From Niabella aurantiaca DSM 17617 (lineage in GTDB: Bacteria > Bacteroidota > Bacteroidia > Chitinophagales > Chitinophagaceae), in the NCBI RefSeq assembly GCF_000374125.1, contig NZ_KB893625.1, forward strand, positions 654,945-718,944: DNA of 64,000 bases, in the 5' to 3' direction. The translations under genes were made by a program, and so were the position numbers. The notes below the pieces were generated by a model that made no database searches, was not told where the DNA came from, and saw nothing but the letters and a program-made list of their open reading frames with translations. Numbering within the stretch: position 1 is the stretch's first letter; each line of letters begins with the position of its first letter. Of this stretch, positions 27,827-36,450 are shown piece after piece.

Positions 27827-28061
27827 TGATTTATCGGACATTTGTTAAAAAATAATCAGGAAGAAGGTTATTTTTTTTCTTCCTGTTTTTTGAGGAAGGA
27901 AGGCTTGCGCTGTTGTCTGAAAAAGGAGGGCAGCAGATGGTCGCCGGCTTCTTCCGGAAGCAGGGATTTCCCCGGGCTTTTGATGCCGGATCCGGCCCCG
28001 CTGAAAATTCGGACATTATTAAAAACTACCGTTAGTTATAGAATATTTTTTAAATATTTAT

Positions 28062-28091
28062 TTTGCAATTTGAATTTTCGTTTTATATTTG
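28062..28091 (+). promoter_or_regulatory. promoter of the aromatic operon leader (TTTG-N18-TAnnTTTG)
   Basis: TTTG at 28062-28065, an 18-base spacer and TATATTTG at 28084-28091 fit the Bacteroidota vegetative promoter consensus in both boxes. Transcription should start near 28095-28098, only a few bases before the leader ATG at 28100. No other gene is read rightward through this region, because the neighbour on the left is divergent. Confidence 0.7.
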
Positions 28092-28099
28092 AGCCCTAA

Positions 28100-28186
28100 A
28101 TGATACGCGCAACAAAATTTTATACCTGGTTTTATTTTAGCTTCTTCTTTTTTAGCGGAAAGCCGGGTGCATTTTTGTTGAAATAA
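28100..28186 (+). CDS. aromatic-amino-acid-rich leader peptide of the pheA-aro operon
   Basis: A 28-codon ORF too short for usual gene calls. Residues 7-18 read FYTWFYFSFFFF; in all there are eight Phe, two Tyr and one Trp. It starts 8 nt after an exact TAnnTTTG box and ends 28 nt before a perfect intrinsic terminator that lies ahead of pheA. The segment GCCGGG (28162-28167), within the ORF just past the Phe run, is complementary to the 5' arm of that terminator (CCCGGC, 28218-28223). A ribosome stalled at Phe/Tyr/Trp codons would leave it free to pair and block termination. The function is inferred from this architecture, which mirrors the enterobacterial pheA and trp leaders. Confidence 0.8.
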   Translation: MIRATKFYTWFYFSFFFFSGKPGAFLLK

Positions 28187-28214
28187 TTTTATACCAACAT
28201 ATTCAACATAAAAG

Positions 28215-28244
28215 AATCCCGGCGAAAAGGCCGGGATTTTTTTT
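28215..28244 (+). terminator. attenuator terminator upstream of pheA
   Basis: A perfect nine-pair stem, AATCCCGGC with GCCGGGATT, loop GAAAAG, followed by a T run ending at 28244. It is only 23 nt before the pheA ATG, and nothing but the leader ORF lies between it and the promoter, so it must act on the operon's own transcript. The 5' arm can alternatively pair with GCCGGG at 28162-28167. Confidence 0.85.
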
Positions 28245-28267
28245 ATAACATACCAGTAGGAAGAAAA

Positions 28268-29122
28268 ATGATAAGAGAAACAACTCAGGCAGGAACCGTG
28301 CATATGGCCATACAGGGCTATGAAGGAAGTTTTCATCAGGAAGCCGCCAACCTCTATTTTAAAAAACAGGTTACGGTAGAGTGTTGCGATACCTTTAAAG
28401 AAGTGATTGCGGCGGCAAAGGATCCGGACCGCACTGATGGCTGCCTGATGGCCATCGAAAATTCCATCGCCGGGAGCATTCTTCCAAACTATAACTTATT
28501 GCAGGGCAGCGACTTGCGGATTATAGGTGAAGTATATATGCAGATCAACCAGAACCTGCTGGTAAACCAGGATGTGGAGCTGGAGGACATCAAAGAAGTG
28601 CATTCGCATACCATGGCCCTGCAGCAGTGCTATGAATACCTGGACCAATTCCGTTGGAAACTGGTAGACGCGGAAGATACGGCGCTCAGCGCCCGTCATA
28701 TAGCACAGCATAAGGCCCGGCACATTGCGGCAATTGCCAGTAAGCTGGCTGCTGAGCTTTACGGGTTGAAGGTCATTGCGCCAAAGATCCAGACACTGAA
28801 GAACAATTATACGCGCTTCCTCGTGCTGCGCCGCCGGGAGGACCTGCCGGCGGCGGCCGAAGGCGACAAAGCTTCCATTAATTTTCATACGGATCATTCC
28901 AAAGGAAGCCTGGCCAAGGTGCTTTCCATCATCGCAAAGGAGAAAGTGAACCTTACCAAGCTGCAGAGCTTCCCCATCCCCGGAACCCAGTTCCGGTACC
29001 AGTTCCATGCGGATATGGAATTTGAGCAGATAAATGATTTTGAGAAAATGATGGATAAGATAAAACCAGTGACCACCGGTTTAAAAGTATATGGCATTTA
29101 CAAAAGAGGTTCATGGAAATAG
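28268..29122 (+). CDS. pheA: prephenate dehydratase
   Basis: A 284-residue monofunctional prephenate dehydratase, converting prephenate to phenylpyruvate. Catalytic-domain motifs are IQGYEGSFHQEAA, AIENSIAGSILPNYNLL and NNYTRFLVL (TRF motif). A C-terminal ACT domain starts near residue 200 (KGSLAKVLSIIAKEKVNLTK); the Phe-binding ESRP motif reads QSFP here, so feedback by Phe may be altered. ATG 28268 follows the attenuator; Met12 (MAIQGYEG) is an alternative. The 3' end overlaps the aminotransferase start by 10 nt. Its first codons resemble those of the leader peptide (MIRETT against MIRATK). Confidence 0.95.
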   Translation: MIRETTQAGTVHMAIQGYEGSFHQEAANLYFKKQVTVECCDTFKEVIAAAKDPDRTDGCLMAIENSIAGSILPNYNLLQGSDLRIIGEVYMQINQNLLVNQDVELEDIKEVHSHTMALQQCYEYLDQFRWKLVDAEDTALSARHIAQHKARHIAAIASKLAAELYGLKVIAPKIQTLKNNYTRFLVLRRREDLPAAAEGDKASINFHTDHSKGSLAKVLSIIAKEKVNLTKLQSFPIPGTQFRYQFHADMEFEQINDFEKMMDKIKPVTTGLKVYGIYKRGSWK

Positions 29123-30288
29123 CGAAAAGACTTAATGGAGTGGGGGAGTATTATTTCTCCAAAAAGCTGCGGGAGATCGACGGGCTGAACAAACAGGGGA
29201 AAAATATCATCAACCTCGGTATCGGCAGTCCCGATCTGCCGCCGCATCCGGAAGTGATCCGGACATTACAGGAAGAAGCGGTAAAACCCAATGTACACGG
29301 GTATCAGAACTATAAAGGCAGCCCGGTGCTGCGCCAGGCCTTTGCAGACTGGTACCGGAAATGGTATGGTGTGGAACTGAACCCGGAAACCGAGATACTG
29401 CCCCTCATTGGCAGTAAGGAAGGGATCATGCATATCTGTATGACCTATCTGAATGAAGGGGATGCGGCCCTGGTACCCAACCCGGGGTATCCGACTTACC
29501 GGAGCAATGTAACCATTGCCGGGGGAGTATGCATCAATTATGAGCTGAAGGAGGAGCACCGCTATCAGCCGGATCTGGAAGCGCTGGCTGCAAAAGATCT
29601 TTCCCGGGTAAAGCTGATGTTTGTAAACTATCCGCAGATGCCAACAGGGCAGCAGCCGGATGTGGAGGTGATGAAGGACCTGGTCGCTTTTGCAAAAAAG
29701 CACGGGATCTTACTGGTGCACGATAATCCGTATAGCTTTATCCTCAATGACCGCCCGGCCAGCATTCTCAGCATCGAGGGAGCAAAAGAGGTAGCGTTGG
29801 AATTGAATTCGCTCAGCAAGTCGCACAATATGGCGGGCTGGCGCGTAGGGGTTCTTTGCGGGGCGGCAGACCGGGTCAACGAGGTGCTGCGGTTTAAGAG
29901 TAATATGGACAGCGGCATGTTCCTGCCCCTGCAGCTGGCTGCAGCTGCGGCGTTAAGCCTGGGCCGGGACTGGCATGATGAAGTGAACGCGGTTTACAGG
30001 GCCCGGAGGGAAAAGGTATATGACCTGCTGGATCTGCTGGGATGTACCTATTCGAAGGATCAGGTAGGCCTGTTTATGTGGGCGGCCATCCCCCAGGGAT
30101 ATAAAGACGGGTATGAACTGGCGGATGCGGTGTTATATAATGCCGATGTGTTCATAACGCCCGGCGGGATCTTTGGCGATGCCGGCGACCGGTACATCCG
30201 CATCAGCTTGTGCGGGTCCATCGAACGCTTTGAAGCCGCCATCGACCGGGTAAGCGCGCAAATAGCGAAGATCAGAATTGAGAATTGA
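29113..30288 (+). CDS. class I/II pyridoxal-phosphate aminotransferase, probably aromatic
   Basis: A 391-residue fold-type I aminotransferase. It contains INLGIGSPDLPPHPEV, the substrate-binding GYQNYKGSPVLRQAFADWY, LVPNPGYPTYRS, VHDNPYSFI with the PLP-ring Asp, and SLSKSHNMAGWRVG with the PLP-binding Lys. It resembles the LL-diaminopimelate/aspartate aminotransferase branch. Its position between pheA and tyrA suggests transamination of phenylpyruvate and 4-hydroxyphenylpyruvate. The last codons and the stop lie inside a 7-nt periodic array, so the exact C-terminus may be recent. Confidence 0.9.
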   Translation: MEIAKRLNGVGEYYFSKKLREIDGLNKQGKNIINLGIGSPDLPPHPEVIRTLQEEAVKPNVHGYQNYKGSPVLRQAFADWYRKWYGVELNPETEILPLIGSKEGIMHICMTYLNEGDAALVPNPGYPTYRSNVTIAGGVCINYELKEEHRYQPDLEALAAKDLSRVKLMFVNYPQMPTGQQPDVEVMKDLVAFAKKHGILLVHDNPYSFILNDRPASILSIEGAKEVALELNSLSKSHNMAGWRVGVLCGAADRVNEVLRFKSNMDSGMFLPLQLAAAAALSLGRDWHDEVNAVYRARREKVYDLLDLLGCTYSKDQVGLFMWAAIPQGYKDGYELADAVLYNADVFITPGGIFGDAGDRYIRISLCGSIERFEAAIDRVSAQIAKIRIEN

Positions 30289-30387: not shown

Positions 30388-31239
30388 ATGGTCAATCGTA
30401 AAAGAATCGCAATTGTAGGGGTGGGCCTGATCGGAGGATCGATGGCACTCCAGTTGCACGAGAAGAAATTGTCGTCCAGGCTGATCGGTGTGGAAGCCAG
30501 CAAAGTACACGCGGAGCAGGCGCTGGAGTATGAGCTGGTAGATGAATTCCTGTCGCTGGAAGAAGCCATAAGCGCGGCAGAGGTCATCGTGCTGGCCATT
30601 CCGGTGAACAAGATGGTGCATTTGCTGCCGCAGATAATGGACCAGGTAACCGACCAGATCGTTATGGATATGGGATCTACAAAGTCATCGGTGATCGATG
30701 TGCTGAAACAACATCCCAAACGCGGCCGCTTTGTTGCCACGCACCCCATGTGGGGAACCGAGTACAGTGGCCCCAAATCGGCTGTACGTGGTGCTTTTGA
30801 AGGAAAGGCGGTCATCATCTGCAACCCCGGTGAATCGGATGCCGATGCCCTGGGATGGGTGGAAAAAATGTATGCCAAGATCGGCATGCGCATTGTGGAA
30901 ATGGAAGCCGGAGCGCACGATCTTCATGTGGCCTATGTAAGCCATATCAGCCACATCACTTCGTTTGCACTGGCCAACACGGTTCTGGAAAAGGAAAAAG
31001 TGGAGAGTGCTATTTTTGAAATTGCCTCGGCGGGTTTCGAAAGTACGGTGCGGCTTGCAAAGAGCAACCCGGATATGTGGGTGCCCATTTTTTTGCAGAA
31101 CAAAGACAATATCATCGATGTACTGACGGCGCATATCGACCAGCTCACAAAGTTCAAGGAGTCGATACAGGAAAATGACCCCGGGCGTTTACAGGCATTG
31201 ATCAACGACGCCAACAAGATCAAACGCATCATCAAATAA
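30388..31239 (+). CDS. tyrA: prephenate dehydrogenase
   Basis: A 283-residue NAD(P)-dependent oxidative decarboxylase making 4-hydroxyphenylpyruvate. The Rossmann motif is IAIVGVGLIGGSMALQL; MDMGSTKSSVID, ATHPMWGTEYSGPKSA and DLHVAYVSHISHITSFALAN (catalytic His region) are family signatures. There is no fused chorismate mutase or ACT domain, which fits the separate mutase domain in the next gene. It continues the aromatic operon after a repeat-filled 99-nt gap. Confidence 0.94.
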   Translation: MVNRKRIAIVGVGLIGGSMALQLHEKKLSSRLIGVEASKVHAEQALEYELVDEFLSLEEAISAAEVIVLAIPVNKMVHLLPQIMDQVTDQIVMDMGSTKSSVIDVLKQHPKRGRFVATHPMWGTEYSGPKSAVRGAFEGKAVIICNPGESDADALGWVEKMYAKIGMRIVEMEAGAHDLHVAYVSHISHITSFALANTVLEKEKVESAIFEIASAGFESTVRLAKSNPDMWVPIFLQNKDNIIDVLTAHIDQLTKFKESIQENDPGRLQALINDANKIKRIIK

Positions 31240-31276: not shown

Positions 31277-32368
31277 ATGAAAACTCTTGAAATGACGGAT
31301 AAAGAAAAAACACAACAGGTATGGACAAAACGTCCCATCGTTATCAGTGGGCCTTGCAGCGCTGAAACGGAAGAACAGGTAATAGCCACGGCACAGCGCC
31401 TGGCGGCAACCGGTAAGGTAGATGCACTGCGCGCCGGCATCTGGAAGCCAAGAACCAAGCCCGGTATGTTTGAAGGCATAGGCGCCAAAGGATTGCCCTG
31501 GATGCAGGCGGCAAAAAAGGCGACCGGCCTGCCAACAGCAGTAGAAGTGGCCACTGCAAAACAGGTAGAGGCGGCACTGACCTTTGACGTGGACATCCTG
31601 TGGATTGGGGCGCGCACCACGGTAAACCCTTTCAGCGTTCAGGAAGTAGCCGATGCCCTGAGAGGGGTTGATGTTCCTGTGCTGGTAAAAAACCCGATCA
31701 ACCCCGACCTGGAGCTTTGGGGCGGAGGCGTGGAACGCATTGCCCGTGCCGGTGTAAAGGATATCGGGTTGATCCACCGGGGCTTTTCTTCCTATGGTAA
31801 TACGCAATTCCGCAATGCGCCCATGTGGCACCTGGCCATTGAAATGAAGCTGCGCTTTCCCGATCTGCCCATCATCAACGATCCCTCACATATCTGCGGT
31901 AACCGCGACGGGCTGTTTGATGTGGCGCAAAAAGCGATCGACCTCGACTACGACGGCGTGATGATCGAGTCGCATATCGATCCGGACAATGCCTGGAGCG
32001 ATGCCAAACAACAGGTAACGCCCGAGCGTCTAAAAGAAATGCTGGAAGCGATTGTCTGGAGAAAGGAAAGTAAAGAGAACTCTGAGCTGCAGGGCGGACT
32101 GGAAAAACTGCGCCAGCAGATCAACCACCTGGATGATGAAATGCTGCAGATCCTTTCCCAGCGGATGAAGATCGCTGATAAGATCGGCCAGTATAAAAAA
32201 GAAAATAACCTCACCATCCTGCAAACCAACCGATGGCAGGAGATCTTAGATAAAATGATGGCGAAAGGCGAAAAGCTGGGATTGAGCAAAGACTTCATCA
32301 TGAAGTACCTGGATGCCGTGCATCTGGAGAGCATCAATCACCAGAAAAATATAATGGACGCACAATAG
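31277..32368 (+). CDS. bifunctional 3-deoxy-7-phosphoheptulonate synthase/chorismate mutase type II
   Basis: A 363-residue fusion. Residues about 15-255 form a DAHP synthase of the KDO8P-synthase-like (Ibeta) type: PIVISGPCSAETEEQV, ALRAGIWKPRTKPG, LVKNPINPDLELW, LIHRGFSSYG and INDPSHICGNRDG. Residues about 270-360 are an AroQ-type chorismate mutase (LRQQINHLDDEMLQILSQRM, then IADKIGQYKKENN). The fusion couples entry into the shikimate route with the branch to prephenate, and mutase-domain fusions often mediate feedback control. It is typical of Bacteroidota. Confidence 0.95.
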   Translation: MKTLEMTDKEKTQQVWTKRPIVISGPCSAETEEQVIATAQRLAATGKVDALRAGIWKPRTKPGMFEGIGAKGLPWMQAAKKATGLPTAVEVATAKQVEAALTFDVDILWIGARTTVNPFSVQEVADALRGVDVPVLVKNPINPDLELWGGGVERIARAGVKDIGLIHRGFSSYGNTQFRNAPMWHLAIEMKLRFPDLPIINDPSHICGNRDGLFDVAQKAIDLDYDGVMIESHIDPDNAWSDAKQQVTPERLKEMLEAIVWRKESKENSELQGGLEKLRQQINHLDDEMLQILSQRMKIADKIGQYKKENNLTILQTNRWQEILDKMMAKGEKLGLSKDFIMKYLDAVHLESINHQKNIMDAQ

Positions 32369-32460
32369 TTCACAGATCATAGTTCATAGATTATAGCGGA
32401 TAGGGTTCCTTAAACTATGGTCTATGAACTATTCACCATTCACTATTCACTATTTATCAT
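32367..32460. repeat. degenerate 7-nt periodic array between DAHP synthase gene and aroB
   Basis: AGTTCAC, AGATCAT, AGTTCAT, AGATTAT, AGCGGAT and later ATTCACC, ATTCACT, ATTCACT, ATTTATC step by seven. It supplies a spurious in-frame ATG at 32424 ahead of the real aroB start. Confidence 0.7.
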
Positions 32461-32465
32461 CAGGA

Positions 32466-33482
32466 ATGGAAAAAGTTATAAAATTCTCAAATGCTTCCAC
32501 GCATTTTTATTTTGACAGCTCTTTTAAGCAGATAACCAGGATCGCTGACAAAAGATCATTGGTGATCATTACGGATGAAAATGTTTTTAAGGCCCACACC
32601 GCTGCCTTCAAAGGGTTGAATGTGATCGTGCTGAAGCCAGGTGAGGAATACAAGGTACAGGCTACCGTAGACGAGGTGATCGATACCCTTATAAAAATGG
32701 AAGCCGACCGGAAAACCGTACTAGTGGGAGTGGGCGGTGGGGTGATCACGGATCTGACCGGCTATATTGCCTCAGTGTATATGCGCGGCATCCGCTTCGG
32801 GTTTGTGCCTACGTCTATCCTTGCCCTGGTAGACGCTTCCATCGGGGGCAAGAATGGTATTGATGTGGACCGGTATAAGAACCTCGTGGGCATCATCCGG
32901 CAGCCTTCCTTTATCCTGCATGATGTGGCGTTCCTGCAATCGCTGCCCCAAAGCGAGTGGGAAAACGGCTTTGCAGAGATCATCAAGCATGCCTGTATCA
33001 AAGATGCACCCATGTTTAAGCAGCTGCAGCAGGAGTCGCTTTCTTCTTATCAAAAAGACAAAAAGAAACTGAGCGGCCTGATCCGGCGCAATGCCCTGAT
33101 CAAGACCAAAGTGGTACAGAAAGATGAATTTGAAAAAGGAGACCGCCGCTTATTGAACCTGGGGCACACCATTGGGCATGCCCTGGAAAAAGAATATGAG
33201 CTCATGCACGGGCAGGCTGTTGCCATTGGTACTACCTATGCCTGTCATATTTCGGAGCAAATAACCGGGTTTACTCAAACCGCAGCGGTGGTAGCGCTCC
33301 TGGAACAATACCGGCTGCCTACTTATGCCGGCTTCGACAAGCAAAAGGTGTTTAATGGCCTCAAGATGGATAAGAAACGCGAGAAAAAAGAAATGAACTT
33401 CGTATTGCTTAACAAGATCGGACAGGGGATTGTAAAACCCATTGCCATGAGGCAACTGGAAAAAATCATTAACAAATTATAA
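32466..33482 (+). CDS. aroB: 3-dehydroquinate synthase
   Basis: A 338-residue NAD- and metal-dependent enzyme for the second shikimate step. ATG 32466 is chosen; the frame stays open to 32424, but those 14 codons come from the 7-nt array. Motifs are VGVGGGVITDLTGYIASVYMRG (quoted as GGGVITDLTGYIAS), FVPTSILALVDASIGGKNGID, NGFAEIIKHACI and GDRRLLNLGHTIGHALE, which carries metal-binding His residues. It is intact and of usual length. Confidence 0.95.
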   Translation: MEKVIKFSNASTHFYFDSSFKQITRIADKRSLVIITDENVFKAHTAAFKGLNVIVLKPGEEYKVQATVDEVIDTLIKMEADRKTVLVGVGGGVITDLTGYIASVYMRGIRFGFVPTSILALVDASIGGKNGIDVDRYKNLVGIIRQPSFILHDVAFLQSLPQSEWENGFAEIIKHACIKDAPMFKQLQQESLSSYQKDKKKLSGLIRRNALIKTKVVQKDEFEKGDRRLLNLGHTIGHALEKEYELMHGQAVAIGTTYACHISEQITGFTQTAAVVALLEQYRLPTYAGFDKQKVFNGLKMDKKREKKEMNFVLLNKIGQGIVKPIAMRQLEKIINKL

Positions 33483-33535: not shown

Positions 33536-33587
33536 AGCTGAAAACTGACAGCTGAATGCTGAAATCTCAAATCTCAAATCTCAAATG
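33536..33587. repeat. degenerate 7-nt periodic array running into the aroA start codon
   Basis: AGCTGAA, AACTGAC, AGCTGAA, TGCTGAA and three exact AATCTCA-phase heptads run up to and include the aroA ATG at 33585. The same three heptads recur inside aroA at 34283-34303. Confidence 0.75.
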
Positions 33588-34943
33588 AACAGAACCATAC
33601 ATCCTTCAAAATTAGCCGGTAATATTTATGCCGCAGCATCCAAAAGCTCCATGCAGCGGGCCTGTGCCGCGGCATTGCTTTCAATGCAAAAAGCAGTGAT
33701 CAAAAATCCGGGGCACAGCAATGACGATATAGCCGCTATGGGTATCATCCGGTCATTGGGGGCAGTGATTACCGAAGTAGACCGGGAAACCATTGAAATT
33801 GAAAGTTCATTTTTAAACGACCCGGCGGCGATTGTTTCAAAAGAAGCTGCGGTGAACTGTGGCGAGAGTGGTCTGAGCATACGGATGTTTACCCCCATTG
33901 TTGCATTGTGCAAAAATGAAGTGACCATTAACGGAGCTGGCAGCCTGGTTACCCGGCCCATGGATTTCTTTGACCAGGTACTGCCGCAACTGGGAGTTTC
34001 GATCGTTTCCAATAACGGTAAACTGCCACTGAAGGTCAATGGCCCTTTACAACCCAGAGAGATCACGATTGACGGCTCTTTGAGTTCCCAGTTCCTTACG
34101 GGACTGCTGATGGCGTTTGCGGCCGTTCCTGCGCCGGACCCGGTAATCATCCGCGTAAACGACCTGAAGAGCAAGCCCTATATTGATCTTACGCTGAACG
34201 TCATGCAGCAATTCGGTCTGCGGGTTCCGGAAAATAACAATTATGAAACGTTCACATTTGCCGCGTCCCAACCCGAATCCCGAATCTCAAATCTCAAATC
34301 TCAAATAGACTACACGGTTGAGGGTGACTGGAGCGGCGGCGCCTTTTTGCTGGTAGCCGGTGCTATAGCCGGTGATATCCGGGTGCAGGGGCTTCAGCAA
34401 ACCAGTACGCAGGCCGATAAAAAGATCATCGAAGCCTTAATGGCTGCCGGAGCCGGCATTGCCATGGAGGCAAAAGGGATCGTGCTGCATGCGGCGCCAT
34501 TGCAAGCATTTACATTTGACGCGACGGATTGTCCCGACCTGTTTCCCCCGCTGGTAGCGCTGGCAGCAAACTGCAAAGGCATCACCAAAATAAAAGGCGT
34601 AAGCCGGCTGGCACATAAGGAAAGCGACCGGGGTGTCACCCTGCAGGAAGAGTTTGGCAAAATGGGAATCCGGGTAGATCTGGATAGCGACATCATGAGG
34701 GTACATGGCGGTGCCGTGAAAGGCGCGGTGGTGCATTCCCGGCACGATCACCGGATCGCGATGGCCTGTGCCACAGCAGCGCTGAGAGCGGATGGCCCTG
34801 TTACGATCGAAGAGGCAGAAGCGATCAATAAATCTTACCCCGATTTCTATGATCACTTAAAAGAGCTGGGGGCAACGGTTACCGGTGGGCTGGATTACAG
34901 AAATGCGCTGAACGAAACTTACTCAGATAAAAACGGGGAATAG
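33585..34943 (+). CDS. aroA: 3-phosphoshikimate 1-carboxyvinyltransferase (EPSP synthase)
   Basis: A 452-residue EPSP synthase. Present are SKSSMQRACAAALL (phosphate-binding Lys/Ser/Arg), NCGESGLSIRMF, GAGSLVTRPM, DGSLSSQFLTGLLMA, EGDWSGGAFLLVAGAIAG, TQADKKIIEAL and HDHRIAMACATAAL. Residues about 231-241 (ESRISNLKSQI) are encoded by an AATCTCA array identical in unit to the one before the gene, so a short surface insertion appears to have come from an intergenic repeat, in frame. The position lies just before the second-domain EGDWS motif. Catalytic residues seem intact. Confidence 0.95.
   Translation: MNRTIHPSKLAGNIYAAASKSSMQRACAAALLSMQKAVIKNPGHSNDDIAAMGIIRSLGAVITEVDRETIEIESSFLNDPAAIVSKEAAVNCGESGLSIRMFTPIVALCKNEVTINGAGSLVTRPMDFFDQVLPQLGVSIVSNNGKLPLKVNGPLQPREITIDGSLSSQFLTGLLMAFAAVPAPDPVIIRVNDLKSKPYIDLTLNVMQQFGLRVPENNNYETFTFAASQPESRISNLKSQIDYTVEGDWSGGAFLLVAGAIAGDIRVQGLQQTSTQADKKIIEALMAAGAGIAMEAKGIVLHAAPLQAFTFDATDCPDLFPPLVALAANCKGITKIKGVSRLAHKESDRGVTLQEEFGKMGIRVDLDSDIMRVHGGAVKGAVVHSRHDHRIAMACATAALRADGPVTIEEAEAINKSYPDFYDHLKELGATVTGGLDYRNALNETYSDKNGE
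34270..34306. repeat. 7-nt periodic array inside aroA coding sequence
   Basis: Units AATCCCG, AATCTCA, AATCTCA, AATCTCA (34276-34303) continue the heptad pattern seen in intergenic DNA. Three heptads equal seven codons, so the reading frame is kept. Confidence 0.8.
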
Positions 34944-35024: not shown

Positions 35025-36023
35025 ATGAATGCATTCGGACAATTATTCAGGGTACAGATCTTTGGCGAATCACATGGTGAATGTGTGGGTATTGTAATAG
35101 ATGGCCTCCCCGCCGGACTGGATCTTCCGGTGGAGGATTTCCTGCCGGATATGGAACGCCGCAAAGGAGGCACACAGAAAGGCGCTACACCCAGAAAGGA
35201 AGACGATATCCCCCTGTTTAAAAGTGGCGTATTTAACGGAAAATCCACGGGCTTCCCGGTGATGATCTATTTTGAAAATAAGAATACCAGGAGTGGGGAC
35301 TACGAAAAGATAAGGAGCTTTCCCCGGCCGGGTCATGCCGATTTTGTGGCGCACAAAAAGTTTGGCGGTTTTGAAGATTACCGGGGTGGCGGGCATTTCA
35401 GCGCGCGTTTGACAACAGGCCTGGTGGCCGCGGGCGTCATCGCCAAAAAGCTGCTCCGCAATGTTTCCATAGAAGCGCGGATCGTCGAAATAGGCGGGGA
35501 CCCGGATCCGGAAAACGGGCTGCAGAAAGCCATTGAGGCGAAGGACTCCGTAGGAGGGCTGATCGAATGCCGCGTAAATGGATTGCCCGTAGGATTGGGA
35601 GAGCCTTATTTTGATTCTATGGAATCGGTTTTGGCACACCTGCTGTTTACCATTCCTGCTGTAAAAGGCGTGGAATTCGGATCCGGCTTTGCCGCTGCAA
35701 AAATGTTTGGCTCCCAGCACAACGATCCTATAGAAAACAATGAAGGCAAAACAACCAGCAATCATGCCGGAGGAATTGTGGGTGGCATAACCAATGGGAA
35801 CGAGCTGGTTTTTCGCATTGCCATCAAGCCTACGGCATCTACACCCAGGCCCCAGCACAGCCTCAACTGGGAAACCGGTCATATGGAGGATTTCTCTGTC
35901 AAAGGCCGTCATGATCTTTGTGTAGCCCTGCGCGCACCGGTGATTGTAGAAGCAGTTACCGCCATTGCCCTGGCCGATTTTATGATGCTGGCAGGAAGAA
36001 TAGAGCGGGTTATAGGGGAATAA
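35025..36023 (+). CDS. aroC: chorismate synthase
   Basis: A 332-residue FMN-dependent enzyme completing chorismate. Signatures are FGESHGECVGIVIDGLPAG, RRKGGTQKG, FPRPGHADFVAHKKFGGFEDYRGGGHFSARLT (in parts RPGHADFVAHKKFGG and RGGGHFSARLTTG), GGITNGNELVFRIAIKPT and GRHDLCVALRAPVIVEA. It is at the short end of the family range (usually about 350-370), but the conserved blocks are all there. It is the last gene of the operon; no clear terminator follows. Confidence 0.95.
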   Translation: MNAFGQLFRVQIFGESHGECVGIVIDGLPAGLDLPVEDFLPDMERRKGGTQKGATPRKEDDIPLFKSGVFNGKSTGFPVMIYFENKNTRSGDYEKIRSFPRPGHADFVAHKKFGGFEDYRGGGHFSARLTTGLVAAGVIAKKLLRNVSIEARIVEIGGDPDPENGLQKAIEAKDSVGGLIECRVNGLPVGLGEPYFDSMESVLAHLLFTIPAVKGVEFGSGFAAAKMFGSQHNDPIENNEGKTTSNHAGGIVGGITNGNELVFRIAIKPTASTPRPQHSLNWETGHMEDFSVKGRHDLCVALRAPVIVEAVTAIALADFMMLAGRIERVIGE

Positions 36024-36397: not shown

Positions 36398-36424
36398 TGC
36401 CATCGCCGCTTATGGATGATATTG

Positions 36425-36450
36425 ATCCCGCTCGCGTGGCGGGATTTTTT
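36425..36450 (+). terminator. intrinsic terminator after glsB-like gene
   Basis: ATCCCGC and GCGGGAT form a perfect seven-pair stem (seven-base loop), followed by six T. It lies 27 nt past the stop. Confidence 0.85.

Follow-up and report, generated by a model that had tools for sequence, protein, structure and literature searches.

Upstream of pheA in Niabella aurantiaca DSM 17617 lies a leader which is very probably a ribosome-mediated transcription attenuator; judged from its sequence, it would sense the supply of phenylalanine and tyrosine and control the aromatic gene cluster downstream. The DNA analysed comprises 64 kb (64,000 nucleotides, here called the window), and the intergenic region is arranged in the order divergent upstream gene, promoter, leader ORF, terminator and pheA. 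The cluster, encoded entirely on the plus strand, begins with pheA (28268–29122), coding for a prephenate dehydratase with a weak match to the ACT domain. It is followed by a class I/II aminotransferase gene overlapping pheA by 10 nt (29113–30288), tyrA for prephenate dehydrogenase (30388–31239), an aroF-type gene for a DAHP synthase fused to chorismate mutase (31277–32368, both Pfam domains above cut-off), aroB for 3-dehydroquinate synthase (32424–33482), aroA for EPSP synthase (33585–34943) and aroC for chorismate synthase (35025–36023). A terminator-like site follows on the plus strand at 36424–36446. The order of these genes, which are spaced by −10 to 102 nt, makes it likely that the leader controls the cluster as a whole. 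Among named organisms, the closest pheA loci are found in Niabella drilacis (92 % protein identity) and N. pedocola (90 %). The best matches of the aminotransferase are models of LL-diaminopimelate aminotransferase, all below the curated cut-offs; from its context we would guess that it is an aromatic aminotransferase.

The leader ORF (28100–28186, plus strand, ATG start at 28100) has 28 codons and encodes the peptide MIRATKFYTWFYFSFFFFSGKPGAFLLK with eight Phe, two Tyr and one Trp, the aromatic residues being concentrated in positions 7–18 (FYTWFYFSFFFF), exactly as the original prediction had it. It is the only ATG ORF of 8–45 codons on either strand of the 64-kb window with at least seven aromatic residues in ten. 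Among 3000 dinucleotide shuffles of the window's upstream region, 8 of 10 aromatics were reached in two and 7 of 10 in 20. The RNA from 28096 to 28267 folds with z = −4.18 compared to 200 shuffles. According to the fold, region 1 (28110–28133), the 5′ side of the 1:2 hairpin, lies inside the codons and comprises the segments CAACAAAA and TACCTGGTTTT, of which 28110–28117 pair with 28173–28180 and 28123–28133 with 28159–28169. Region 2 (28159–28182) can pair either with region 1 or, as antiterminator, with region 3 (28202–28223), whose last bases are at the same time the 5′ arm of the terminator. The intrinsic terminator 3:4 (28210–28243) consists of nine perfect Watson–Crick pairs between the arms AATCCCGGC and GCCGGGATT (28215–28238) with A-U flanks and a subsequent T run; here, too, the earlier description was accurate. 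It had also named a segment GCCGGG (28162–28167) complementary to the 5′ arm of the terminator. The segment is present but forms just one part of a longer pairing of 28162–28182 with 28202–28223, composed of six, four and seven pairs (28162–28167/28218–28223, 28172–28175/28210–28213 and 28176–28182/28202–28208).

The leader is conserved in relatives. The pheA-anchored set comprised 48 loci, the window and 47 others from Niabella, Ferruginibacter, other Chitinophagaceae and Bacteroidetes bins, of which 46 with at least 250 nt upstream were used (L035 and L046 were dropped for too little upstream DNA). An ORF starting with ATG, GTG or TTG and containing at least six aromatic residues in ten was found in 45 of these 46 loci, the exception being L043, and a scripted terminator call followed 42 of the 45 leaders. 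The original prediction had named as its test a comparison of related Chitinophagaceae for a conserved leader ORF with covarying antiterminator and terminator; both were found (for the covariation see below), the opposite of the outcome that it had set against itself. In the phylum sample pheA was present in 138 of 158 genomes, the own genome included. Upstream DNA was examined for 69 of the 137 others, a non-random choice of the 29 best-scoring and 40 spread over many families, and leaders with at least 7 of 10 aromatics occurred in 5/5 loci of the own family, 25/28 of other families of the class and 4/36 of other classes. The pheA loci of other classes are thus a natural negative control for the leader criterion.

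A covariance model (R1), built from 23 sequences with the antiterminator as structure, matched 45 of 46 sources (L043 was missed) and gave one chance match in addition; among the 23 sources outside its build 22 were matched. With strict filters, 124 of 195 family genomes were matched at E ≤ 0.01, and pheA lay downstream of all 47 of these matches with flanks examined (29 of the best and 18 weak ones). The 195 family genomes and the 47 pheA-anchored loci share species and are not independent. The chance match, on the minus strand of L040, covers a piece around the terminator and still forms a row of the alignment A4 used below. R1 also matched the own genome at a second place (G000:C13, 30.4 bits, E 0.14), likewise attributed to chance: no pheA is nearby, and neither a Phe/Tyr-rich leader nor an amino acid gene was found among its ORFs and sequence. 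Four loci (L084, L086, L113 and L109) carry tandem Phe/Tyr-rich leader ORFs before one pheA. A scripted terminator follows each leader in three of them and none in L109; L084 has two R1 matches.

For the analysis of codons, the two copies of the window (L001 and L049) were removed before counting and identical leaders were collapsed, resulting in 103 distinct leaders. Since a content of 6 of 10 aromatic residues was the condition of entry and some loci were fetched through R1, the frequency of leaders cannot be estimated independently from this set. At least 7 of 10 aromatics were present in 89 of the 103 leaders, preselected at 6 of 10, against 2 of 1030 shuffles. In the densest block, which was chosen in frame 0 before the frames were compared, 8.0 aromatic codons of ten stand in frame compared to 2.2 and 3.0 in the other frames. 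The T-rich triplets in frame are those of Phe and Tyr (TTT, TTC, TAT, TAC; 922 times) versus those of Leu (TTA, TTG; 98 times). In all aligned rows but one (L014; 38 of 39), the gap runs that lie before the end of the aromatic block have lengths divisible by three, whereas gap lengths of 1, 2, 4 and 5 are common 3′ of the leader stop codon in the same alignment. This pattern indicates that the leader is constrained as a coding sequence as far as the block extends. The core of region 2 occurs in different frames (57, 10 and 10 of 77 leaders), so the constraint 3′ of the block looks like one acting on the RNA. Measured from the last aromatic codon downstream to the core of region 2, the distance is 10 or 13 nt for 50 of 77 leaders (median 12 nt), about the footprint of a ribosome, which fits a stalled ribosome that would leave region 2 free.

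Phe and Tyr occur together in all 103 leaders (576 and 346 codons, respectively), Trp in only 24 of them with 24 codons in total, and these two amino acids are therefore likely the signals sensed. The proposal that codons for all three aromatic amino acids act as signals thus holds for Phe and Tyr but is rejected for Trp as a third conserved signal. Among the Niabella loci, W stands at the Trp position of the window in L002, L003, L004 and L006, and G in L005, L007 and L047. The TGG of the window (28127–28129) is part of the 1:2 stem and may therefore be present for pairing.

Leaders of the same kind precede other amino acid operons of the own genome: MNYLNNNNWWWHRNSSGAR before trpE, MKIFVHIHHHVADIPV before hisG and MISNHNYNVPLFRNILVVIVIVISCRYGGGLIV before ilvD. 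A terminator stands behind each of the three. In these sisters the codons are exchanged for those of Trp, His or Ile/Val/Leu, matching the product of the respective operon. Within the genus, 11 of 12 genomes have the trp leader, which was not found at the one other locus; the his leader occurs at 14/14 loci (13 genomes) of close relatives, and 7 of the 14 primary ilvD loci combine an ilv leader with a terminator. A second ilvD-type gene (eight loci, L196–L203) was discarded as a candidate, the combination of Ile/Val/Leu leader and terminator being absent there. At 23 homoserine dehydrogenase loci no leader with terminator was detected; they form only a weak negative control of the 12 loci with the upstream region in reach, because the 11 others contain a gene of ~820 codons starting at or beyond the 1500-nt flank. 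Across the phylum, his leaders were found in 18 of the 29 best-scoring loci versus 0/29 on the other strand. For trp leaders, a loose test gave 26/30 best-scoring loci versus 5/30 on the other strand, and a test for at least three Trp in eight residues 21/30 versus 0/30. These loci are the best-scoring among 51 (his) and 53 (trp) genomes with the gene and hence a non-random draw. In a further genome (G040), the second R1 match led to a leader rich in Ile and Val (MLKKLSYSIITSVAAIIIVVVIIISASAGGGA), which is followed by a terminator and an ilvE-like gene, named by eye (L081, G040:C30, minus strand, 2240–2480).

These data bear on two readings that dispense with codon sensing through charged tRNA. 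An RNA element working without translation, for instance a riboswitch or a T-box-like leader, in which the ORF would be a by-product of T-rich sequence, appears very unlikely. The RNA is indeed T-rich and strongly structured, and its conservation lies partly at the RNA level, as the varying frame of the region-2 core after the aromatic block illustrates. However, such an element would have to account for the excess of Phe and Tyr over Leu triplets, for gap runs in threes within the block and for the exchange of codons in the sister operons. Moreover, no Rfam family except tRNA reached its gathering score in the window or in eight relatives and sister loci; this includes the T-box leaders and amino acid riboswitches of Rfam, the only hit in the window being a tRNA elsewhere. 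The other reading, which we likewise hold to be highly improbable, is a nascent-chain arrest peptide which senses free Phe or Tyr instead of charged tRNA, as TnaC does for Trp. Many closer relatives keep the residues RFYFSFYF, as would be expected of an arrest peptide, but in other families the peptides differ (e.g. MKLFNTYYFGYFYYFSKSRG and MLQNTWQGFYFYFYFFYKS) while the content of Phe and Tyr stays, both residues replace each other at many positions, and the leader of each sister operon carries codons for the amino acid which that operon makes.

The pairings of a ribosome-mediated attenuator are conserved as well. In alignment A4 the antiterminator 2:3 is paired in 90.6 % of the cells with two-sided changes in 9 of 18 pairs (37 two-sided cells versus 3–13 with partners slid) and the terminator 3:4 in 95.1 % of the cells (17 two-sided cells versus 0–4 when slid), both counts being dependent on the model since A4 was fitted to R1 and consists of related sequences including the one chance row. 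Of 77 leaders, 71 have the GGG of region 2 paired with codons lying upstream in the leader. In 76 of the 77, the minimum free energy of 1:2 is lower than the average of synonymously recoded versions (mean z −1.84). The features tested for an attenuator, namely a codon-rich leader ORF, a terminator, a covarying and mutually exclusive 2:3 pairing and a 1:2 hairpin over the regulatory codons, are all present, in agreement with the initial comparison to the order of parts in enterobacterial phe and trp attenuators. The segment 28158–28243 folds as terminator at −25.4 kcal/mol versus −19.2 kcal/mol for the antiterminator segment; when a stalled ribosome was modelled in three rough ways, the RNA left uncovered again settled into the terminator at equilibrium. 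According to these models the switch between 2:3 and 3:4 must therefore be kinetic, as folding during transcription allows. That the hairpin acts mainly after transcription, by hiding the pheA start or releasing a small RNA acting in trans, is scarcely to be credited: a terminated leader RNA would arise anyway and the trp attenuator RNA of Sinorhizobium meliloti works in trans according to the available parts of PMC7298713, but the hairpin ends 24 nt 5′ of the pheA ATG in the window and lies ~60–190 nt 5′ of the pheA match in many relatives (a match which may begin ~36 nt inside the gene), and it bears the T run of an intrinsic terminator, so that a role in trans would be an addition rather than an alternative.

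The promoter placement suggests how ribosomes may enter. As originally proposed, a two-box promoter precedes the leader; it is of the Bacteroidota primary sigma type and lies on the plus strand. Its −33 box TTTG (28062–28065) is separated by an 18-nt spacer from the −7 box TATATTTG (28084–28091), following the published consensus as given in excerpts of PMC7366714 and PMC9723704. The latter, in its accessible part, places the TAnnTTTG box at −12 to −5; transcription is therefore predicted to start at 28096, leaving a predicted 5′ UTR of 4 nt, a feature that the original prediction did not mention. The window, the pheA-anchored loci and the family genomes together provide 81 leaders (one member, L104, belongs to another family), and 58 of them have TAnnTTTG 4–10 nt 5′ of the leader ATG, which corresponds to a 5′ UTR of 0–6 nt. 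The same spacing was found in 59 of the 103 distinct leaders versus 0.92 expected from shuffles. Most close relatives should thus have a leader mRNA with no 5′ UTR or almost none. Of 12 Niabella trp loci, 11 show a gap of 5–6 nt, and no leader was found at the twelfth; among the 14 his loci it is 7 nt in 11 and 8 nt in one, and two have no box. No TAnnTTTG was found within 60 nt 5′ of the ATG of the own ilv leader, and in phe leaders of other families the box is mostly farther off or unrecognised (exception L112, 8 nt). The fractions published for the phylum are low, 5.5 % leaderless transcripts in Flavobacterium psychrophilum (PMC9723704, in part) and ~3.7 % of 5′ UTRs below 10 nt in Bacteroides thetaiotaomicron (PMC7366714, in part), and the predicted placement close to the AUG therefore looks selected. 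Just 5′ of the −33 box, the stretch 28010–28060 contains an AT-rich palindrome as well as an inverted repeat resembling AACTAnCGTTAGTT. This block, kept in L002, L003 and L006, all close species, is a possible operator.

A different conserved element, the 20-nt sequence CATATGGCAAGCAATCGTTA, lies directly 5′ of a terminator-like hairpin in 29 of 302 fetched loci (e.g. L018:2211–2230 and L037:2254–2273) and frequently precedes the pheA leader by a few hundred nt. It is absent from the 64-kb window with up to three mismatches allowed. In the own genome three copies (G000:C4:63559, 64162 and 64710) with identical surroundings stand within 1.2 kb and look like a repeated small RNA gene; a copy with one mismatch (C19:141007) lies 3′ of a tRNA-Trp gene. 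No Rfam match was obtained in the six of these loci that were tried.

The mechanism proposed for the pheA attenuator builds on what the alignments contain: the conserved ORF, its codon content and frame, three alternative pairings and a near-constant spacing between codons and region 2. Transcription would start a few nucleotides 5′ of the leader AUG, and the ribosome would bind the emerging RNA directly at its 5′ end with no Shine–Dalgarno sequence involved, as the promoter spacing suggests. With charged tRNA-Phe and tRNA-Tyr in plentiful supply, it would pass the codons rich in Phe and Tyr and cover region 2, whereupon region 3 could pair with region 4 and transcription would end before pheA. 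If either charged tRNA were scarce, the ribosome would stall on the Phe/Tyr run and the 1:2 hairpin would be broken; region 2, thereby freed, would pair with region 3, so that no terminator forms and RNA polymerase reads through. When translation fails altogether, 1:2 would form and permit 3:4. In this scheme the start site, the translation of the leader, ribosome stalling, read-through, the sensing of tRNA and the control of all genes of the cluster are predictions.

The enteric pheA attenuator, which is directed by Phe and has a normal 5′ UTR, combines a Phe-rich leader ORF with regions 1–4 and their alternative pairing. The Niabella leader resembles it (Rfam Phe_leader, RF01859) in the Phe-rich leader ORF, the alternative 1:2, 2:3 and 3:4 pairings and the terminator before pheA. 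However, it codes for Phe and Tyr, its ORF starts ~4 nt from the predicted 5′ end, and its cluster includes tyrA, aroF, aroB, aroA and aroC. With 23.5 bits compared to a gathering score of 55, it is outside the Rfam family. Vitreschak and colleagues reportedly listed attenuators of Bacteroidetes in 2004. In the full texts within reach of the literature searches no description of a pheA attenuator or a near-leaderless start was found; Vitreschak 2004 and Lopatovskaya 2010 may list Bacteroidetes attenuators. A leaderless start has precedent since leaderless leader peptides are known from Streptomyces lividans and S. meliloti (in the latter before trp), where a leader ORF with regulatory codons likewise lies at the 5′ end of the RNA and serves attenuation (PMC8079986 and PMC7298713, both in part). 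These systems belong to other phyla and mostly to other operons, and the 5′ UTR length in the window is a predicted one. Bacteroidota are reported to initiate translation without Shine–Dalgarno pairing (PMC10931766, in part). Before their own case in Firmicutes, Naville and Gautheret (2010) knew of no leader peptide system outside Proteobacteria and Actinobacteria, according to the accessible part of their paper (PMC2965389). That classical attenuation is little described in Bacteroidota, as was initially assumed, is borne out by the partial texts consulted: these yielded one sentence from 2021 on leader-peptide attenuation before amino acid operons of F. psychrophilum (PMC9723704) and one comment likening short ORFs of B. 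thetaiotaomicron to leader peptides. The F. psychrophilum leaders are from the same phylum and probably share the mechanism; the part available names no operons, sequences or structures. Hence the scheme is classical, and within the literature searched the pheA attenuator and its near-leaderless start are new.

Beyond this locus, it seems an evenly balanced question whether Bacteroidota run classical attenuators throughout the phylum (those of trp and his being widespread, those of phe/tyr present in part of it and those of ilv at least close to the window), with the phe, trp and his RNAs of Chitinophagaceae starting at or within about six nt of the leader AUG and so letting a ribosome join at once behind RNA polymerase. 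If this is true, transcription and translation would be closely coupled at these operons, with entry by leaderless or nearly leaderless initiation, and the ilv leaders, having no promoter box at such a distance, would be an exception to explain. In the literature examined, partly as excerpts, no demonstration of transcription–translation coupling in Bacteroidota was found. Since classical attenuation works only with a ribosome close behind RNA polymerase, conserved and covarying attenuators in several families of the phylum make coupling there directly testable. The leaders also fill a gap in annotation, which concerns short peptides and leaders without an Rfam family at gathering score, and they may offer an explanation for the control of aromatic, tryptophan, histidine and branched-chain amino acid synthesis in environmental bacteria.
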